Source of the DNA: Nitrospirota bacterium
Lineage (GTDB): Bacteria; Nitrospirota; Nitrospiria; Nitrospirales; Nitrospiraceae
Assembly (NCBI GenBank): GCA_030682135.1
Contig: JAUXQT010000086.1
Location: 38,839 to 102,838 of the forward strand
DNA length: 64,000 nucleotides
Direction of reading: 5' to 3'
The notes under the pieces are model-generated. The model did no database searches. It saw nothing but the letters and a program-made list of their open reading frames with translations, and was not told the DNA's origin. Each line of letters begins with the position of its first letter. Within the stretch, counting starts at the first letter, position 1. The position numbers were made by a program, and so were the translations under genes. Below, piece by piece: positions 55,801 through 64,000 of this stretch.

Positions 55801-56487
55801 TTAGTACAGGATTCCCAGATAGGCGCCCGCCGTGCCGTAGCTATTCACGGTATTGGTTTGATTGGATGCCAAATGATAGCGTGCATCAATTCCAAGGTTG
55901 AGCGGCCCCCAGAAGTTGTATTCGAAACCCGCCCCGAATTGCACACCAATGTCCAGATACTGCGACTGATTCGACGGCGGGCTGATCACGTGGAAATCCA
56001 GTCCGACTGGAATGACCCAGGGCCGGAACTTGCTCCCCTCCATGAATTTGAGCTTCGGAGCGATATCCACCGTCAGCATGGTCATTTGAACTTTATTGGT
56101 CCCTGCTGCCACGCCAGCCACAGTCGGTACAGCTTGCGCGACGGTGTTGGAATTCCATCGCTTGAACTCCACCCCGACTTCTCCCAGCAACGACATGCCT
56201 TTGAGCCCCAAAAAATCCTTGTGCATCAGGAGATCCAGGCCTCCTCCGACATAGTACCCAGCCGTACTGTCGTTGCTTCGTCCACCATTACGATACACAT
56301 CTGTGAACACCTCGCCAGACCGATTACTATTCATCCCGGCAGCGCCCCCCCGGAAGAACACCTGGTTGCTGAGGCCGGTACCTTCCTCAGCCGAAGCCGG
56401 CAATGCACCACAGACAGCGAGCCCCAGCATGATCGCAACTACGGCAGACCTGACTCCAATGTTCCTGTTTCCCATCCGAACCTGCAT
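55801..56487 (-). CDS. Outer-membrane beta-barrel protein
   Basis: A 228-residue exported protein with signal peptide (SAVVAIMLGLAVCGALPASA) and alternating strands typical of OmpW/OmpA-like barrels: GYYVGGGLDLLMHKDF, LLGEVGVEFKRWN, TVDIAPKLKF, GVQFGAGFEYNFWG, LGIDARYHLAS, ending in GAYLGILY. GGGAGGGGG precedes the ATG. It follows the two formylglycine-generating-enzyme-like genes with a 122-bp gap. Pore or structural role; substrate unknown. Confidence 0.8.
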   Translation of the reverse strand: MQVRMGNRNIGVRSAVVAIMLGLAVCGALPASAEEGTGLSNQVFFRGGAAGMNSNRSGEVFTDVYRNGGRSNDSTAGYYVGGGLDLLMHKDFLGLKGMSLLGEVGVEFKRWNSNTVAQAVPTVAGVAAGTNKVQMTMLTVDIAPKLKFMEGSKFRPWVIPVGLDFHVISPPSNQSQYLDIGVQFGAGFEYNFWGPLNLGIDARYHLASNQTNTVNSYGTAGAYLGILY

Positions 56488-56609: not shown

Positions 56610-57575
56610 TTACGGCACGAGCTGTGACACTTTCGTCCCTGCTGTTTCCTGCGCATCCTTCGCGCAGCGGAATCCCATCCAGTTGATCTTCGTATTGGGA
56701 TCGGTCCCGTTCCGCATGGCGACACGCATCGTCGTGGTGCTGTCCATCCATCCACCGCCACGAAAGGCTTTCTGGGTGCCGGCCTCAGGACCTTTGGGGT
56801 TCCGATCCGGCGCCGTGGCGTAATAGTCCTGGTCGTACCAATCGGACACCCATTCAGACACGTTCCCGATCGTCTGATAGAGGCCGAAGGGGCTCACGGC
56901 ATTCTCATATTTATCGACCGAAATAATCGGGGGATAGAGCAAGAGCCGCTCTGGACGATCCCGCACCGGACCTGAGAGGCCGGTTCTTCCGAAATTCGCC
57001 CGGCTCGGTCCCGCATATTCCTTGCCCCAAGGGAAGAGACGCCCGTCCACTCCGCGCGCCGATTTCTCCCATTCCGCTTCGGTCGGCAGCCGTTTCCCTT
57101 CCCACTTGCAGAAGGCATCGGCGTCATACCAGGACACATGCATGATCGGATGGTGCGCCATCGCTTCCTGGAAATTTCCACCCTCATACCGCCAATCCAC
57201 TTGTGGCGGGCGGTTCGTCGCGAGCACGAACTTGAGATACTCCAGCGCCGTCACTTCGTACTTGCCGATCTCGAAGGCATCCAGATAGACACGCCGCTGC
57301 GGAATCTCGCCGCGATAGGCGAGCCGGTCCGTCTTCTTGTCGCTGCCCATGATAAACTCGCCGGCCGGCACCAGAACCATGTCATCCTTGGTTTTCCACT
57401 TGGCCGCCCGTTCTGCCGCAAGCTGTTTGCCCGCCTCGGTCCACTCCATCGTCACGTCCTGCGTATCGAGCCCCCAGGCAACGTTCGCAATCACCAGGGC
57501 CACTGCCAGGGCGATGATCGTATTCACCACCCGATTGACCGTCACCAATCGTTCCATTCCCGCCACATTCATCAT
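56610..57575 (-). CDS. Exported SUMF1/FGE-like protein (copy A)
   Basis: A 321-residue protein with an N-terminal hydrophobic segment (NTIIALAVALVIANVAWGL) and a formylglycine-generating-enzyme (SUMF1) domain from about residue 65: MVLVPAGEFIMGSDKK, YLDAFEIGKYEVTALEYLKF, RLPTEAEWEKSARG, LFPWGKEYAG, QTIGNVSEWVSDWYD, AFRGGGWMD and MGFRCAKD. True FGE uses two Cys near the C-terminus; I see only one in the terminal part, so catalysis on sulfatases is doubtful. AGGAGG precedes the ATG. Such proteins often serve as binding or maturation partners in nitrifiers. Confidence 0.85.
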   Translation of the reverse strand: MMNVAGMERLVTVNRVVNTIIALAVALVIANVAWGLDTQDVTMEWTEAGKQLAAERAAKWKTKDDMVLVPAGEFIMGSDKKTDRLAYRGEIPQRRVYLDAFEIGKYEVTALEYLKFVLATNRPPQVDWRYEGGNFQEAMAHHPIMHVSWYDADAFCKWEGKRLPTEAEWEKSARGVDGRLFPWGKEYAGPSRANFGRTGLSGPVRDRPERLLLYPPIISVDKYENAVSPFGLYQTIGNVSEWVSDWYDQDYYATAPDRNPKGPEAGTQKAFRGGGWMDSTTTMRVAMRNGTDPNTKINWMGFRCAKDAQETAGTKVSQLVP

Positions 57576-57595: not shown

Positions 57596-58552
57596 CTAGC
57601 GGCGCGAGGCAAGAGGCAAGGGGTGTACGGTTTCTTCCCGCTCGCCTTTCGCCTCAAGCCCCTTGCCCACTGCTGATTTCGCACATCGCAATCCCGTCAA
57701 ATAACTTCTGCGATCCGGCGTGCCGCCATTCCTCCCGGCAGATCGCGCGACCTCCGGATCTTCGTTCCAGGAGCCGCCACGGAACACTTTGAGTTCGCCG
57801 GTCGCCGGCCCCGTCGGATTGTCCGGCAGGCTGCTCCGGTAGTACTCGGGGTCGAACCAATCCGAGACCCACTCACTGACGTTACCGGCCATTTGATGGA
57901 CACCGTAGGGGCTGACACCCTTGTCGTACCGGTTCACATTGGCCAGCGGCGGATACTTAAATCCGCGTTTCGATCCAGAATGCGCGATATTACTTTTCAG
58001 CCACCCGGCCGGTTCGTTCCCCCAGGGGAACATGCGGCCGTCTTCACCGCGCGCGGCTTTTTCCCATTCGGCTTCGGTCGGCAGGCGTTTTCCCACCCAC
58101 CGGCAATAGGCCGTGGCTTCTTTCCAGCTCACCCCGATCACCGGATGCGCAGCCATCTTTTCGAGAAAGGGATCCTGCATCCAGAACTCCGGCCAGGCTG
58201 CCCCTGTCGCCAGCACGAATCGAAGGTAATGCACGTTGGTGACTTCATACCGGTCGATCTCGAAAGCATCCAGGGAAACGGGCCGCTGCGGCAATTCTTG
58301 AGGACCAGCTGCACGATCCACCTTGGGATTGCTGCCCATCAAGAATGGCCCTCCCGGCACTGGAACCATGCCTTCGGGAACCTCCAGCAACGCCAGCCGC
58401 TCCAGCTCCCAGGGTTGCGCCCAGGGATCATGCTTGGGAGACAAATGATCGGCGTAGGCAACCCCCAGGCAAGAGGCGAGAGGCAAAAGGCAAGAGGTGA
58501 ACAACAGCGCGCGCTGCCATCCGTTCTTACAGATTTCGCTCCATTGCCTCAT
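57596..58552 (-). CDS. Exported SUMF1/FGE-like protein (copy B)
   Basis: A 318-residue paralogue of copy A: GMVPVPGGPFLMGSNPK, VSLDAFEIDRYEVTNVHYL, YCRWVGKRLPTEAEWEKAA, MFPWGNEPAG, HQMAGNVSEWVSDWFDP, VFRGGSWNEDPE and YLTGLRCAKS. The N-terminus (LLFTSCLLPLASCLG) and the end (VHPLPLASRR) read through aggcaagaggcaag repeats, which look like repeat sequence fused to the gene at both ends; the real start and stop may therefore be displaced. 21 bp upstream of copy A, so a tandem pair. Confidence 0.8.
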   Translation of the reverse strand: MRQWSEICKNGWQRALLFTSCLLPLASCLGVAYADHLSPKHDPWAQPWELERLALLEVPEGMVPVPGGPFLMGSNPKVDRAAGPQELPQRPVSLDAFEIDRYEVTNVHYLRFVLATGAAWPEFWMQDPFLEKMAAHPVIGVSWKEATAYCRWVGKRLPTEAEWEKAARGEDGRMFPWGNEPAGWLKSNIAHSGSKRGFKYPPLANVNRYDKGVSPYGVHQMAGNVSEWVSDWFDPEYYRSSLPDNPTGPATGELKVFRGGSWNEDPEVARSAGRNGGTPDRRSYLTGLRCAKSAVGKGLEAKGEREETVHPLPLASRR

Positions 58553-58597
58553 GCCTATCGCCTCATCCCTCATCAGCACACCAACCGCTCTCACCGT

Positions 58598-59044
58598 TTA
58601 CGTTGGCCTAGAAACGGCTCCCTCTCCAGAGACGCAGGATCGGAGCTTTTCGAATGCTTCACGCGCCCTGGTGACGTCAACTCCCAACCATGCAGAGGCC
58701 ACATCCAGCGAGTTGAAAAGGATGACCCGCAGGCCATGGTCTATTGCTTGCTTCTCGTATACTCGCGCGCGATCGTAGGTCGATTCATTCACCAGGAGCG
58801 CCGCTTTCCCCACTCTCAACTTTTCTATCGATCGCCGATAGAGATCGGTGACTTCATGAACCTCTTCCATGCTTGTCTCGAACGATGCGCCTGTGGCATC
58901 GACGAGAACGGATGCGCCGCGCGCGATGGAGGCATCGCTCAAATGCTGGCGCTCATGGGTGAGAATTTCCTCGTGAGAGACCACCCCCGTCCACAACTCC
59001 AGCACCAGCGACCCCTCATTCAGCACGACATACGTGACCGGCAT
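58598..59044 (-). CDS. STAS/SpoIIAA-like protein
   Basis: A 148-residue soluble protein. VLNEGSLVLELWTGVVSHEE, ASVLVDATGASFETSMEEVH and KLRVGKAALLVNES alternate strands and helices in the SpoIIAA-like (STAS) pattern. No signal peptide. It lies between copy B and the multicopper oxidase gene; a role as a small anti-sigma or phospho-regulatory module is possible but unproven. Confidence 0.6.
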   Translation of the reverse strand: MPVTYVVLNEGSLVLELWTGVVSHEEILTHERQHLSDASIARGASVLVDATGASFETSMEEVHEVTDLYRRSIEKLRVGKAALLVNESTYDRARVYEKQAIDHGLRVILFNSLDVASAWLGVDVTRAREAFEKLRSCVSGEGAVSRPT

Positions 59045-59126
59045 CCGGATCCTTCCCCATCGACCCTGCGGACGACAGCTCTTTAACCATAGCCGCTCAG
59101 TGCGCCGAGGTTCTCGTTCTAAGAAA

Positions 59127-59161
59127 ACGGGGGAGCCACACCTTACGCGCAGCTCCCCCGT
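59127..59161 (-). terminator. Rho-independent terminator after the multicopper oxidase gene
   Basis: Read leftward, the stem ACGGGGGAGC and its perfect partner GCTCCCCCGT enclose a 15-nt loop and are followed by TTTTCTTAG. It lies 27 bp past the stop of the multicopper oxidase gene, so that gene is probably transcribed apart from the genes to the left. Confidence 0.88.
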
Positions 59162-59187
59162 CTTGACCGAGACTATTCCGCTGTCGA

Positions 59188-62100
59188 CTACTTCATCGCC
59201 GTCGGAATAGCGCGAGGCTCTGGCTGCACATCCGCATGCTTGGCACCCATTCCATGGGCACCCAGCGGTTGGATCCGTGAGTCACCGGCCGGCAACACAC
59301 GGAGGTAGCCCCATTGTCCGGACTGCGTGTAGGGCAGCCGCGCATTGGACCACACGAAGTCTCCCACCTGACGATACGGGCCGCCCGCACCGCCGCGGAT
59401 GAAGACATCGAGGATCTCAGACCCGGCGTACTCCACCACGCTGATCTGGTCGGCGCCGGGCATGTAGGGCTCGATCGGCCATTCATGGCCTTCGACCGCA
59501 AACATCCCGTTCTGTTCGCTATTTGCGCCAATCACATGGATACGAATCGCGTCACCGGCATGCGCCTCGATCAGAGGCGTGACCGGATCTTCTGGCTTGT
59601 CCACCACGCAGGGCTGGAATATCTTGCCCAGCGAGCAGCCTTGCTCCTCACGGAACTTATAGGGTTCCGCGCGATAGTTAACCGACGTCAACCCGGCCAC
59701 GTTTTGCACGTATGGCATGAACGCGGTGCCGATGATGTTGTCTTCGTCCTGGAAAAAGAGGGCCACGTCACGGTAGTTCCGCTTGCCCATATTCTCGGGC
59801 AAGCTAACATCCACAATGACGTCAGCTCTCCATGAGTTCTTCTGCGAGATATCGGCACCGGTGACAGGGTCCCGATACTGGGAGCCCTTCGGCCCGATCA
59901 CCACCGCTCCGTACAATCCGTTACGCGGATTGACGACGATGTTGCCACCGTCCCACACCAGCGACGTCGTTTCCTTGTTGGAAGGATGCGCGTAGTAGGT
60001 ATAGGTGCGGCTCTCGCCCGGGGCAATCGTCTGATCGCCAGGATTGTTCCCGACGTTCAGGCCCTGGCTGTCTCTCGGATCGAAGGCCAGGCCCGGCGCA
60101 AAGAACGACGCCCGGCTCGCCTTCATCTTGTTCTTCAGATGGACCTTGATGCAGTCGCCAAGATTGGCACGCAACGTGAGCGGATTCGGCATCACATTGC
60201 CCGCCACCGTGGTCGCTTCTTCTTCCAGCGCGAAGATCTTGCCTTCCGGCACGGTCATTTCGATCTTGCGCTCGAAGTCGACTTCGATCGCATCCGGCGC
60301 CTTCGGGTGGAGCCTCAACGGACGGTCCAAGGACACGACGTTGAAATTCTTCACCGGGGCATCGGACGGACAGACGGAACTCGGCGTGGCCGGAATCCCG
60401 AGAGGATTGGTTCCCTTGGGCAATGGCTTCAGGTCCGCCACTTCTTTATCGAGCACGCGCAGGATACCCCATCCACCTTCGGCGAAGTGTGACGTTCTGC
60501 CGTTGAAGTGGATGTAGTCGCCCGGCATACCCTGGAATCCGCCCGCTTTGCTCACGAGGTCATACCGTTCGGCGATCCCGACGTGAATCGAGTTCTTCCG
60601 ATTGGCATCTGCCGCATACCGTTCCGTGAGGAAGGTATGGCCTGAAATGGTCCAGACGTGGGACTCGTTCATGAGCTGGTGCAACAGACGGAACACCATG
60701 GTGTCCCCCGTGTACGCCCGCAAGAGCGGCGTGCCAGGATCGCCATGGATCGCGCTGTTGAACAGCTTGGACGTATCCGGATTGTTGGACAGACGTTGTG
60801 CAAACGGAGCCGCGCGGAAGTTGAACCCGCTGCCGGTCGTATGCGTACCGCCGTTGATGTACTTGTTCGGAGAAGCCAGAATCTTATCCGGCATCTGGAA
60901 CGAAATGGTCTTGCCTGCTTCCAACGCCACTTCGATGGGCTGTCCCGGAGGATTGCCCGCCTCGATGGTGTTCACCGTGTGCGGAACGGTGTCATGGATC
61001 GACACCATCAACTCACGGAAGCTGCCACTCACACCGGCACCGATCGGCTCGTTGCTGTGAATATCGGCAATCGGACCGCTATACACCAGCTTGCCGTTCT
61101 TCGGATCGTGATAGGTGGACCCGAACGGCTCCACGATCGTCACGCCGAACCCGCCATGCGGCCAGGTCGTCGCACCGAACGCATGGTCGTGCCAGAACAC
61201 GGTCCCCATATCGACGTCTACCCACCACCGGTACCGCACGAACTCCGGCGACACGAGATCGCCCGCCGGATGGTTCTGCTTCAGACCGGTGAAGAAAGTC
61301 ACCTCATCACCCTTGATGCTCTTGATGCGGACAACTTCCTGACAGCTCTTGTCACGCGGCAACGAAGCCGTGGCATCGTGACCCTTCTCCAAACAATCCA
61401 TGCCCACCATCAATTCGGTGTTCAGGTGGAAGGGCGTAGCACCCGGTGCCATCTGAATCTTGATGGACTTGGCACCTGCCTTCACGGCACCAGTCAGCTT
61501 ACCGACCATCGGCGCCGGCAACCCATGCTTGGTCTTCTTGCCCCACATGGTGAACGGACGAACCGACATTTCATATTCCATCCCTGAAATCACACCGTCC
61601 GAGTTCCCTGTATCGAACTGGAAGAAGTGGGGATGGATGTTGATCTTGGACGACTGGAAATTCGTGTAATCGTCGTCGTCCCACTCGCTCGTCAACAACA
61701 AGTCCACGCAGTCATACACGTTGGCGCGAATGACCGCCGGAAGCTTGAGGTCGTCGTTCGCTCTGGTCAGGTTCTCCTCTTCATGGAGCACGTAGATCAG
61801 ACCGTCCTTATCGACCATCGCCGGCTCTTTCCCCTGCTTCTTGGCCAGGGTGATCGGCATGCGGACGAAGTGGATGTTGTAATGCTTACGATTGGCATTG
61901 TCGGGGCAGAGGCTCCAACGGCCCTGCTCGCCCGGCTGTGCCGGCTCGGAAGTCCGCTCACCATTGGCGTCCTGGTGAATCGGTTCCAGCCATGGCGCAC
62001 CGCTATGGTTGGCAGAGAACGGTACCCGCTTGCCGAAATGCGGCTTGAACAGCGGCCAGGACATCTTGCCCGTCGTCGGGTCAAAAAGGATCGCTGGTCT

Positions 62101-64000
62101 GGTGCTGTCATCCCACTTGGCTGCCCATGGGTACTTCGGATTCTGTGCGGTGCTTTCCCGCTCACCCTTGGCAATGTTGCCGTCCCACTTCCAATCCCAC
62201 ACGGTGGAATCGTAGGAAATGATCTGAGCCTTCTCATCGTTCGTGTGGCCGGGCTGCCCCTGAGCCGGCACAAACATCTCGACCCAATCCTTGATGTTCA
62301 CAATGATGGGATCGGACTTCCAGTTGGTCTTCTGGCTCTTGTCGACAATCTTGAACGTCTTTCCGAACCAATCGACCGTCGTCCCGATCAACTTGTCTGA
62401 CGACACGCCCTGCTTCATCCGGCCCTGCCGATCCGGCAACTCCCGGAGATCCGGCATCGTGTCAGTATGCACGCCGCCAGCTTGCAGCGTGTTGTAGAAT
62501 CTGGCATACCCCCACATGCCTGCCACGTAGTGATGCGCGACATGGCAATGGAAGAGGAATTCACCGGCCAGATGCTGGCAGCCACCGCCACCGCATTCTG
62601 GCTCAAGATCCAACGCTTCTGAAGGCCCGATGACTTCCACGTCCACGCGATCGGACTTGGTCCGGACGACCGGATACTTCACCGGACCATCCTGACCCTT
62701 ATACCAATGCTCTTCCTGATCGGCACGCGGGCTGCGCTGCCAACGAATCGTTCCGCTGTGCGGATGGTGGGAATGGAACACTTCCGATCCACCATGCACC
62801 AACCGCCACTTGACGGGATCGCCCATATATCCGCGAGGAATCGTGGTTGGCGGATCGCCGAACGTATAGGCGCTGTAGGCCATCGATTCGTCTTCGAACC
62901 CGAAATACTCATGCTGCAAATGCATCTCGTCGATGCCGAACGGCTCACTGCGATAGTTTAACGCACGACCGCCAGGACGATAGGCATCCGTCAGCGGATC
63001 GCGCTGCGGGAGGAAGTCGCCCTTCTTGTTCAACGGACGGAAGGCTTCATCGCCGATCTCGTGATAGAACAACACGAACTCGCGGAAGTCCGGTCCGGAC
63101 CCGTTGTCGATGTTCACTTGCCAGCCGCTTGTGACCTGCTTGTCGGGGCCAGTCCCCAACGCATCGACATAGGTCGATCCCTTCGGCTCCACAATAAGGG
63201 CACCGAAGAGGCCCAGCACGGTCAACTCACGGTCATGGCTGTAGGAGTGAAACTGCCGGACACCCTCCTGCATCTGGGGATGGATGTACCACTCGAACTC
63301 CTGGGACTTGCCAGGAGCCACAATGGACTCAGGATTCGTCGTCAGGGCCGGCTTGCCGGTCGCGCTGACAATCATGCTGGAGGCGCTGACGAACAGGCTG
63401 CCATCCTCGCCTTCCATCTGGTTGCGGAGGGTCATCTTCATGCAATCGCCCTGGTTCACGCGAAGCACCAGGGGCTGAATCATGTCGCCCTGTAAACCGG
63501 TCGTCACGGCTCCTGGATCGAAGCCATCCTTGTCGCGAGCCGCCTTGTTCTTGGCTTCTTCAGCCCGCACCTTGTCGACATCCTGGGCCAACACATACAT
63601 GTAGCCTGGATAGAAATCGAGCCAACGGTTCAAGGTGATCTCGACGTTGATCATTGCCACGTCGTATTTCTTCACCGGCACACCGGCCGGGCACTTCCCG
63701 CCCGACGTCATCACCGGCTCGCCCTTGGTCCCATCCGACATCAGCAAGAAGCTGCTGCCGTCCTGGCCCATGTACTGGTGCATCATCGACATCTCGTTGA
63801 AGGCACCGGAGGTCTGCTGCGCCTTGGCATCTTTCTGCGCCTGCTGCTCGAGCTTCTCCATCAGGCGATGGTGCTGCATCTCCATCTTTTCTGCATTGCC
63901 CGAACGGCCCTCCATGGCATTTTCCACCACGGTCTGGCCCTTCAACTGCTGAGTCCATCCCGGCATGGCGACCGGAGTGGCATGCCCCTGATGGGACTCC
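59188..64000 (-). CDS. Giant multicopper oxidase (MofA/MnxG-like), 5' end outside window
   Basis: At least 1,603 residues; the frame stays open to the right edge beyond the ATG at 63966, so the start and any signal peptide are missing. Several cupredoxin domains follow each other. Copper motifs, in residues counted from ATG 63966: HSHHPH (398-403), HCHVAHHYVAGM (473-484, the T1/T3 L4-type motif), HPHFFQF (778 on, L1-like) and FWHDHAF (925 on, L2-like). Thus the T1/L4-type motif precedes the L1/L2 types, an order reported for the manganese oxidases MnxG and MofA. Later domains (about 1000-1600) have lost most His pairs. Mn(II) oxidation is inferred by family likeness, not shown. Confidence 0.85.
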   Translation of the reverse strand, partial: ESHQGHATPVAMPGWTQQLKGQTVVENAMEGRSGNAEKMEMQHHRLMEKLEQQAQKDAKAQQTSGAFNEMSMMHQYMGQDGSSFLLMSDGTKGEPVMTSGGKCPAGVPVKKYDVAMINVEITLNRWLDFYPGYMYVLAQDVDKVRAEEAKNKAARDKDGFDPGAVTTGLQGDMIQPLVLRVNQGDCMKMTLRNQMEGEDGSLFVSASSMIVSATGKPALTTNPESIVAPGKSQEFEWYIHPQMQEGVRQFHSYSHDRELTVLGLFGALIVEPKGSTYVDALGTGPDKQVTSGWQVNIDNGSGPDFREFVLFYHEIGDEAFRPLNKKGDFLPQRDPLTDAYRPGGRALNYRSEPFGIDEMHLQHEYFGFEDESMAYSAYTFGDPPTTIPRGYMGDPVKWRLVHGGSEVFHSHHPHSGTIRWQRSPRADQEEHWYKGQDGPVKYPVVRTKSDRVDVEVIGPSEALDLEPECGGGGCQHLAGEFLFHCHVAHHYVAGMWGYARFYNTLQAGGVHTDTMPDLRELPDRQGRMKQGVSSDKLIGTTVDWFGKTFKIVDKSQKTNWKSDPIIVNIKDWVEMFVPAQGQPGHTNDEKAQIISYDSTVWDWKWDGNIAKGERESTAQNPKYPWAAKWDDSTRPAILFDPTTGKMSWPLFKPHFGKRVPFSANHSGAPWLEPIHQDANGERTSEPAQPGEQGRWSLCPDNANRKHYNIHFVRMPITLAKKQGKEPAMVDKDGLIYVLHEEENLTRANDDLKLPAVIRANVYDCVDLLLTSEWDDDDYTNFQSSKINIHPHFFQFDTGNSDGVISGMEYEMSVRPFTMWGKKTKHGLPAPMVGKLTGAVKAGAKSIKIQMAPGATPFHLNTELMVGMDCLEKGHDATASLPRDKSCQEVVRIKSIKGDEVTFFTGLKQNHPAGDLVSPEFVRYRWWVDVDMGTVFWHDHAFGATTWPHGGFGVTIVEPFGSTYHDPKNGKLVYSGPIADIHSNEPIGAGVSGSFRELMVSIHDTVPHTVNTIEAGNPPGQPIEVALEAGKTISFQMPDKILASPNKYINGGTHTTGSGFNFRAAPFAQRLSNNPDTSKLFNSAIHGDPGTPLLRAYTGDTMVFRLLHQLMNESHVWTISGHTFLTERYAADANRKNSIHVGIAERYDLVSKAGGFQGMPGDYIHFNGRTSHFAEGGWGILRVLDKEVADLKPLPKGTNPLGIPATPSSVCPSDAPVKNFNVVSLDRPLRLHPKAPDAIEVDFERKIEMTVPEGKIFALEEEATTVAGNVMPNPLTLRANLGDCIKVHLKNKMKASRASFFAPGLAFDPRDSQGLNVGNNPGDQTIAPGESRTYTYYAHPSNKETTSLVWDGGNIVVNPRNGLYGAVVIGPKGSQYRDPVTGADISQKNSWRADVIVDVSLPENMGKRNYRDVALFFQDEDNIIGTAFMPYVQNVAGLTSVNYRAEPYKFREEQGCSLGKIFQPCVVDKPEDPVTPLIEAHAGDAIRIHVIGANSEQNGMFAVEGHEWPIEPYMPGADQISVVEYAGSEILDVFIRGGAGGPYRQVGDFVWSNARLPYTQSGQWGYLRVLPAGDSRIQPLGAHGMGAKHADVQPEPRAIPTAMK

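Follow-up and report, generated by a model that had tools for sequence, protein, structure and literature searches.

A giant multicopper oxidase (MCO) gene lies at the right end of a 64,000-nucleotide stretch of Nitrospirota DNA (the window, part of contig G000:C94). We read its product as an MnxG-type oxidase with full type 1 (T1) and trinuclear copper ligands that likely reduces O2 in a periplasmic copper relay, partnered by a dedicated amicyanin-like blue copper protein. We assign this reading a probability of about 0.5. Sequence analysis established a complete ligand set, a permuted motif order, co-inheritance with a blue copper gene, and a sigma-54-type motif upstream of most oxidase genes of the window's type (type A). 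An MnxG-like fold for the oxidase and a cupredoxin fold for the partner are predicted by structure models. The conserved partner, which was not visible to the preliminary description of this DNA, is the blue copper protein. The oxidase and its copper motifs are located as follows.

59188..63966, minus strand: giant multicopper oxidase, paralog type A; 5' end missing at the contig end
62758..62775, minus strand: copper motif region 3, H398-x2-H401-x-H403; T1, type 2 (T2) and type 3 (T3) ligands by analogy; 401/402 rows
62515..62550, minus strand: copper motif region 4, H473-C474-H475-x3-H479-x4-M484; 401/402 rows
61627..61635, minus strand: copper motif region 1, H778-x-H780; trinuclear ligands by analogy; 402/402 rows
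61183..61191, minus strand: copper motif region 2, H926-D-H928; trinuclear ligands by analogy; 402/402 rows
59887..60219, minus strand: C-terminal cupredoxin domain PF07732 (Pfam), outside the four copper motifs

Copper ligands and architecture of the giant oxidase

The motifs occur in the order region 3, region 4, region 1, region 2, with regions 3 and 4 ahead of 1 and 2. Residue numbers run from the first ATG of the window open reading frame (ORF). Region names and ligand roles were taken from ordinary multicopper oxidases, which we assume to be a valid guide here; by this analogy, region 4 would supply the T1 Cys, His and axial Met and a T3 His. The twelve ligands (H398, H401, H403, H473, C474, H475, H479, M484, H778, H780, H926 and H928) show no variation when nine proteins are aligned: the window oxidase, four further paralogs from its order and family, one deep member of the class, together with Streptomyces, halophilic archaeal and Priestia MnxG-like proteins. 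All twelve are also kept in 401 of 402 rows (267 filed under Nitrospirota, the window included, 12 from Nitrospinota, 120 from a Streptomyces search and 3 plasmid loci; 375 distinct sequences), and the single exception, P0240, is a fragment. A pseudo-enzyme or structural protein was rejected on this count. Because the Cys-His bridge and the trinuclear cluster are kept except in that fragment, single electrons most likely enter the oxidase at T1 and go on to reduce O2. Two extra His residues stand beside the T1 ligands of Nitrospirota rows, H400 (267/267) and H478 (254/267).

The nearest solved structure, both by sequence and by model, is MnxG (PDB 9bxa), and the modeled chain has the same fold. 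H479 aligns with an Ala of 9bxa. Absence of this T1 His from MnxG was considered and rejected, since the title of the entry reads Mnx H340A and a His is present in the Priestia homologue. The score against the MnxG equivalog NF041487 was 110.2 bits and did not reach the 3100-bit cut-off, a gap that the missing N-terminal residues do not explain. MnxG is also distant in the oxidase tree, at branches >1; this tree was quick and midpoint-rooted, carried a long-branch warning and included no laccase or NirK rows.

The oxidase ORF (59188-63966, minus strand) is uninterrupted and encodes 1592 aa from the first ATG; the frame stays open to the window edge, giving 1603 aa in frame. That edge is the end of the contig (102838), so the gene was cut by the assembly and not by the window alone. 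Nine complete relatives at 97% identity, among the matches listed, are 1642-1646 aa long, and about 50 N-terminal residues are therefore missing. Export is predicted from a signal peptide read by eye in complete relatives.

These results bear on most of the preliminary description. It had placed a region 4-type site before the HPH and FWHDH sites in an inverted, MnxG-like layout, and the motif order bore this out. Its size of more than 1,600 residues fits the complete relatives, with 1592-1603 aa in the stretch in hand. The proposed assignment to the Mn(II) oxidases stood for architecture and ligands (sequence, profile and model) and not for close kinship or meaning, given the distance to MnxG in score and tree, the lack of convincing MnxE/F matches and the class-wide presence described below. 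A placement among laccases or NirK-like proteins had been named as counter-evidence; the best sequence and model match was MnxG rather than either, in a comparison whose tree held no rows of those families.

A blue copper gene inherited with the oxidase

Directly behind most oxidase copies, in gene clusters around 40 loci, lies a gene for a secreted protein of about 300 residues. It carries the type 1 blue copper ligands (His and Cys-x2-His-x2-Met): the C-x2-H-x2-M loop is present in 60/60 members of the cluster, and the His, the loop and two more Cys are invariant in 29/29 chosen rows. A C-terminal PF13620 domain scored above cut-off in four of six members scanned. The partner model (mean predicted local distance difference test, pLDDT, 84.2) had amicyanin 2gb2 as its top match (probability 1.00, E 6e-5) and also matched archaeal purple cupredoxin, auracyanin and plastocyanin, which points to a cupredoxin fold.

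Counting copies with at least 1.3 kb of downstream sequence, a blue copper gene lies on the same strand within 3 kb downstream of 103/119 Nitrospirota and 6/10 Nitrospinota oxidase copies. Type A and type B denote identity to the window protein of >= 78% and 66-71%, respectively. By group, the partner is within 3 kb of 33/42 type-A and 37/38 type-B copies, 10/12 copies at 60-65% identity and 23/27 below. Loci outside the profile gave 52/58 (Nitrospirota) and 6/10 (Nitrospinota). As background, three such blue copper ORFs were found in 484.5 kb away from the oxidase (profile-scanned loci, two overlapping stretches removed). L094 (Nitrospinaceae OFTM191) carries three consecutive giant oxidase genes; the first and second are each followed by a blue copper gene, and the third reaches the contig end. 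On L101, a 5.8 kb contig labelled Candidatus (Ca.) Poseidoniales archaeon and possibly a misbinned bacterial one, a blue copper gene comes after an oxidase gene (58%).

Both genes are nearly universal in the class, which we call Nitrospiria from the names of the listed carriers. The oxidase was found in 243 of 246 class genomes (misses: G360, G323 and G245) and in 175 of the 176 that are >=90% complete and <=5% contaminated; the matches in G385 (best E 1.7e-8) and G313 (1.3e-32) were weak. The blue copper protein was found in 245/246, with a weak match in G245 (8.4e-9). In a phylum sample of 245 genomes, the listed 88 in-class genomes match the oxidase and the other five matches are weak (best 6.9e-19). 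In a phylum sample of 240, blue copper matches were strong (E <= 9e-85) in 85/85 in-class genomes. Oxidase counts per genome in these surveys are lower bounds, with at most two candidates scored each. Full scoring gave three copies in N. defluvii, four in N. moscoviensis, three in Ca. Manganitrophus GAC4 and one in Nitrospina LS_NOB. Carriers among the matches listed, where 78 loci were kept out of 522 relatives, include Ca. N. defluvii, N. moscoviensis, metagenome-assembled genomes (MAGs) labelled N. lenta, Ca. Manganitrophus, Ca. Troglogloeales and Nitrospina. Nitrospinota proteins group with deep Nitrospiria in the midpoint-rooted oxidase tree (support 99), which would fit transfer between the two nitrite-oxidizing phyla.

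Promoters, gene neighbors and further copies

The pattern GGCAY-N5-TTGC, which we take to be the sigma-54 consensus, occurs upstream of 38/43 type-A genes (0.10 in single-letter shuffles) and 1/38 type-B genes. Elsewhere it precedes 3/14 oxidase genes at 60-65% identity and 9/36 below. The scan covered 400 nt upstream of the open frame and the first 60 nt of the frame. The pattern was settled following a looser, weighted search of these loci, and the shuffles permuted single letters; the type-B set serves as the better control. Same-strand sigma-54 activator genes occur within 6 kb upstream of 9/15 type-A and 1/24 type-B copies, and of 4/11 copies at 60-65% identity and 5/27 below.

A second contig of the same genome, C4 (G000:C4:1-12000, L169), starts with codons 1-125, on the minus strand, of a 97% identical oxidase gene. 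This gene start runs on into a leader that is charged and then hydrophobic (MRGDVCKPTRKRRR...), beyond which lie a sigma-54 activator, a response regulator, a PAS histidine kinase and a second sigma-54 activator. Their order recurs upstream of the oxidase in relative G085. The C4 promoter site AGGCACGCAAGCTGCG is one letter from the strict pattern, which G085 misses too. The C4 fragment is either the other side of the same locus in a strain variant or a second copy. Further oxidase fragments occur at contig ends (G000:C46:16564-17844, 66%; G000:C74:2587-3978, 54%), and the genome likely holds more than two copies. Both cluster types are present in it; type B occupies contig C1, where its blue copper genes sit at their usual positions.

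Left of the oxidase, the window holds these features.

59113..59170, minus strand: terminator-like hairpin after the oxidase (folding and shuffles)
58598..59044, minus strand: 148-aa protein without Pfam match, in the position of the blue copper gene of most relatives
57596..58594, minus strand: SUMF1-like protein of the type-A cluster (PF03781)
56610..57575, minus strand: second SUMF1-like protein of the type-A cluster (PF03781)

The type-A cluster consists of the oxidase, usually a blue copper gene, and two SUMF1-like genes. In the type-B cluster, one or two blue copper genes follow the oxidase, then come a 200-residue protein with no match in Pfam and a HEAT-repeat protein, and often there is a further blue copper gene. 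Where 4 kb was in hand, a SUMF1-like gene lies within 4 kb downstream of 21/24 type-A versus 7/30 type-B copies, so the SUMF1 genes are not chance neighbors. The hairpin, followed by GTTTTCTT, folds at -35.6 kcal/mol (z -6.2, 0/200 shuffles as stable); it was not among the results of a generic scan. A hairpin of this strength closing the oxidase suggests that the SUMF1 genes in the window are likely transcribed apart from it. Formylglycine-generating enzymes have a copper-binding Cys pair after an RGGSW stretch. A role of this kind was rejected for the SUMF1-like proteins: the pair is present in 0/21 rows (21 of 29 cluster members, both window proteins read by eye), 17 of which show an RGGxW stretch.

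The preliminary description had listed two SUMF1-like proteins, an outer-membrane barrel and a CopD-like protein on this side, separated from the oxidase by a terminator. The terminator and both SUMF1-like genes (PF03781 at 202 and 192 bits) were upheld, and the CopD-like gene passed its Pfam cut-off barely (33.4 vs 32.1 bits). The supposed barrel, ORF 55801-56487, had no Pfam match and was left unconfirmed. A link between CopD and the oxidase was rejected, as a CopD-like gene is present in only 3/40 relative loci (cluster 17).

A copper relay, its rivals and known systems

In the proposed relay, either a reduced metal ion or the blue copper protein would hand electrons to the T1 copper; these would then move through Cys-His into the trinuclear cluster, where O2 would be reduced to water. 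Electron exchange with T1 would be the most economical role for the blue copper protein; its direction, substrate and benefit we infer. The relay would be a core trait of class Nitrospiria, with the type-A copy as an inducible version and the type-B copy as a version under another promoter. Several observations weigh against this reading. Co-location of the two genes is no proof of electron transfer or of its direction. Weaker blue copper relatives (E >= 6.5e-59) occur in 41/155 out-of-class genomes of the phylum sample, none of them among the genomes with an oxidase match, so the blue copper protein is not tied to the oxidase alone. The 3 kb downstream of the window oxidase and of eight more of the 42 type-A copies (three of these nine had only 1.5 kb of downstream sequence) yielded no blue copper gene, and none was found beside the Ca. 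Manganitrophus copy L085:3198 and 4/10 Nitrospinota copies. The gene is missing from the type-A cluster in the window's genome, G085 and G077 and present in G108 of the same genus. An A-type blue copper gene does lie left of the window (G000:C94:33072-33980; L170:5043-5990), at about 64 kb from the oxidase. It is 84% identical to the best A partner (median 83%) and, at a median of 53% (best 80%), to B partners directly behind oxidases. Cytochrome c and ZIP-family transporter genes lie close upstream of it on the same strand. Finally, pLDDT is 44-60 around regions 3-4 of the oxidase model, a low confidence that allows no statement on copper geometry; of the complete copper sites named as a check in the preliminary description, the ligands are in place, and the model is too uncertain there to show the sites formed.

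A Mn(II)/Mn(III) oxidase that works like MnxG and deposits Mn oxide or Mn(III) appears unlikely, although MnxG is the nearest solved structure with equal motif layout and ligands and Ca. Manganitrophus, reported to grow on Mn(II) (PMC9040806, excerpted text), has three copies. Identity to the Priestia MnxG-like protein is 32%, the profile score is a small part of its cut-off, and nearly all sampled class members carry the gene. MnxG requires MnxE/F subunits, according to the excerpt of PMC5622069. No MnxE/MnxF match at E <= 0.3 was obtained in G000, G055, G403, G404 and G405, where very distant homologs would escape; the best match (E 0.375 in G403) was at chance level. The queries were two small ORFs upstream of the Priestia gene, named by position only, each matching its own record. 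Somewhat less probable still is an oxidase that makes Mn(III) as a superoxide scavenger, as PMC3578206 proposes, in its available text, for the N. gracilis and N. defluvii enzyme. That text reports both organisms to be without superoxide dismutase and catalase, and the family is present in both phyla and class-wide, but this idea depends on a presumed Mn activity and leaves the blue copper partner unexplained. We hold a cuprous or ferrous oxidase for metal homeostasis, with a CueO-like function in an MnxG-like body, to be no better a candidate than the scavenger: H400 and H478 near T1 could bind a metal substrate and a CopD-like gene lies within the window, but the substrate site is putative and few relative loci have CopD.

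A bolder form of the relay is similarly doubtful. The two proteins would make up a class-defining periplasmic copper wire older than nitrite oxidation and Mn(II) lithotrophy, in which the blue copper protein takes T1 electrons before O2 and feeds cytochrome c. This would give Ca. Manganitrophus its missing Mn(II)-to-respiration route and nitrifiers a sigma-54-switched copy. Returning to the O2-reducing relay, we judge a protective role, shielding the periplasm of this organism from reactive metal ions or oxygen species, to be more probable than energy gain from Mn(II). With 243/246 class genomes carrying it, the giant oxidase counts as a core gene and does not point to Mn(II) growth here; it is probably part of the core copper chemistry of Nitrospiria instead of signalling a life on manganese. 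Where Nitrospira genes are annotated as 'manganese oxidase' (e.g., in N. tepida), the label marks a class-wide core gene and is not usable alone as evidence for Mn(II) oxidation in metagenomes.

Laccase, CueO and PcoA have a PF07732-PF00394-PF07731 layout of about 500-600 aa. This layout was not found in the 1592-aa oxidase, which has PF07732 only, near the C-terminus; some relatives also have PF07731/PF00394. The excerpted PMC13374858 deals with a different, three-domain PcoA/CopA type. The oxidase shares with MnxG (9bxa; NF041487; Priestia plasmid homologue L076) a giant, co-linear chain of cupredoxin domains with the same permuted motifs and ligands. It differs in its long inserts and extra His at 400 and 478, and in having a blue copper partner where no MnxE/F was found. 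The nearest full-length relative seen outside Nitrospirota and Nitrospinota is actinobacterial (Streptomyces NBC_00335 plasmid, WP_266914373.1; 33% identity over 94%). The actinobacterial proteins have full length and the same ligands in 119/120 rows (the other is the fragment) but form their own clade, and in Streptomyces a gene annotated CopC follows the oxidase. Amicyanin has the C-x2-H-x2-M spacing; the partner resembles amicyanin and plastocyanin in this loop and in its predicted cupredoxin fold and differs by an invariant Cys pair and a C-terminal carboxypeptidase-regulatory-like domain.

A periplasmic MnxG-like oxidase in N. gracilis and Ca. N. defluvii, placed with NXR-containing regions, is already described in the available text of PMC3578206, which proposes a Mn(III)-based reactive-oxygen defense for it. 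That oxidase is probably of the same family: N. defluvii has three copies, and Nitrospinota MAGs have proteins at 57-61% to the query, among the matches listed. The N. defluvii copies map to 3.28, 3.52 and 3.90 Mb, compared with 3.19 and 3.22 Mb for the NxrA-sized frames; about 60 kb separate the B copy from the nearer frame. Location inside the NXR cluster was rejected, with no oxidase in 60 kb (L157-L164) around the two frames. The partner, a class-wide census and the promoter are not part of that account in the text available. More generally, the literature searched gave no blue copper partner or sigma-54 control for a giant oxidase; its coverage was partial, and earlier descriptions may exist in print.

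PMC9040806, of which excerpts were available, reports two novel MCOs for each Ca. Manganitrophaceae genome. These are probably of the same family, as Ca. Manganitrophus GAC4 has three copies, two of which adjoin a blue copper gene; those excerpts mention no copper electron carrier next to the MCOs. According to them, the MCOs could serve energy gain from Mn(II) only if electrons reach a periplasmic carrier. The conserved blue copper gene directly behind most oxidases is a concrete candidate for this carrier, and the question becomes testable with two proteins.
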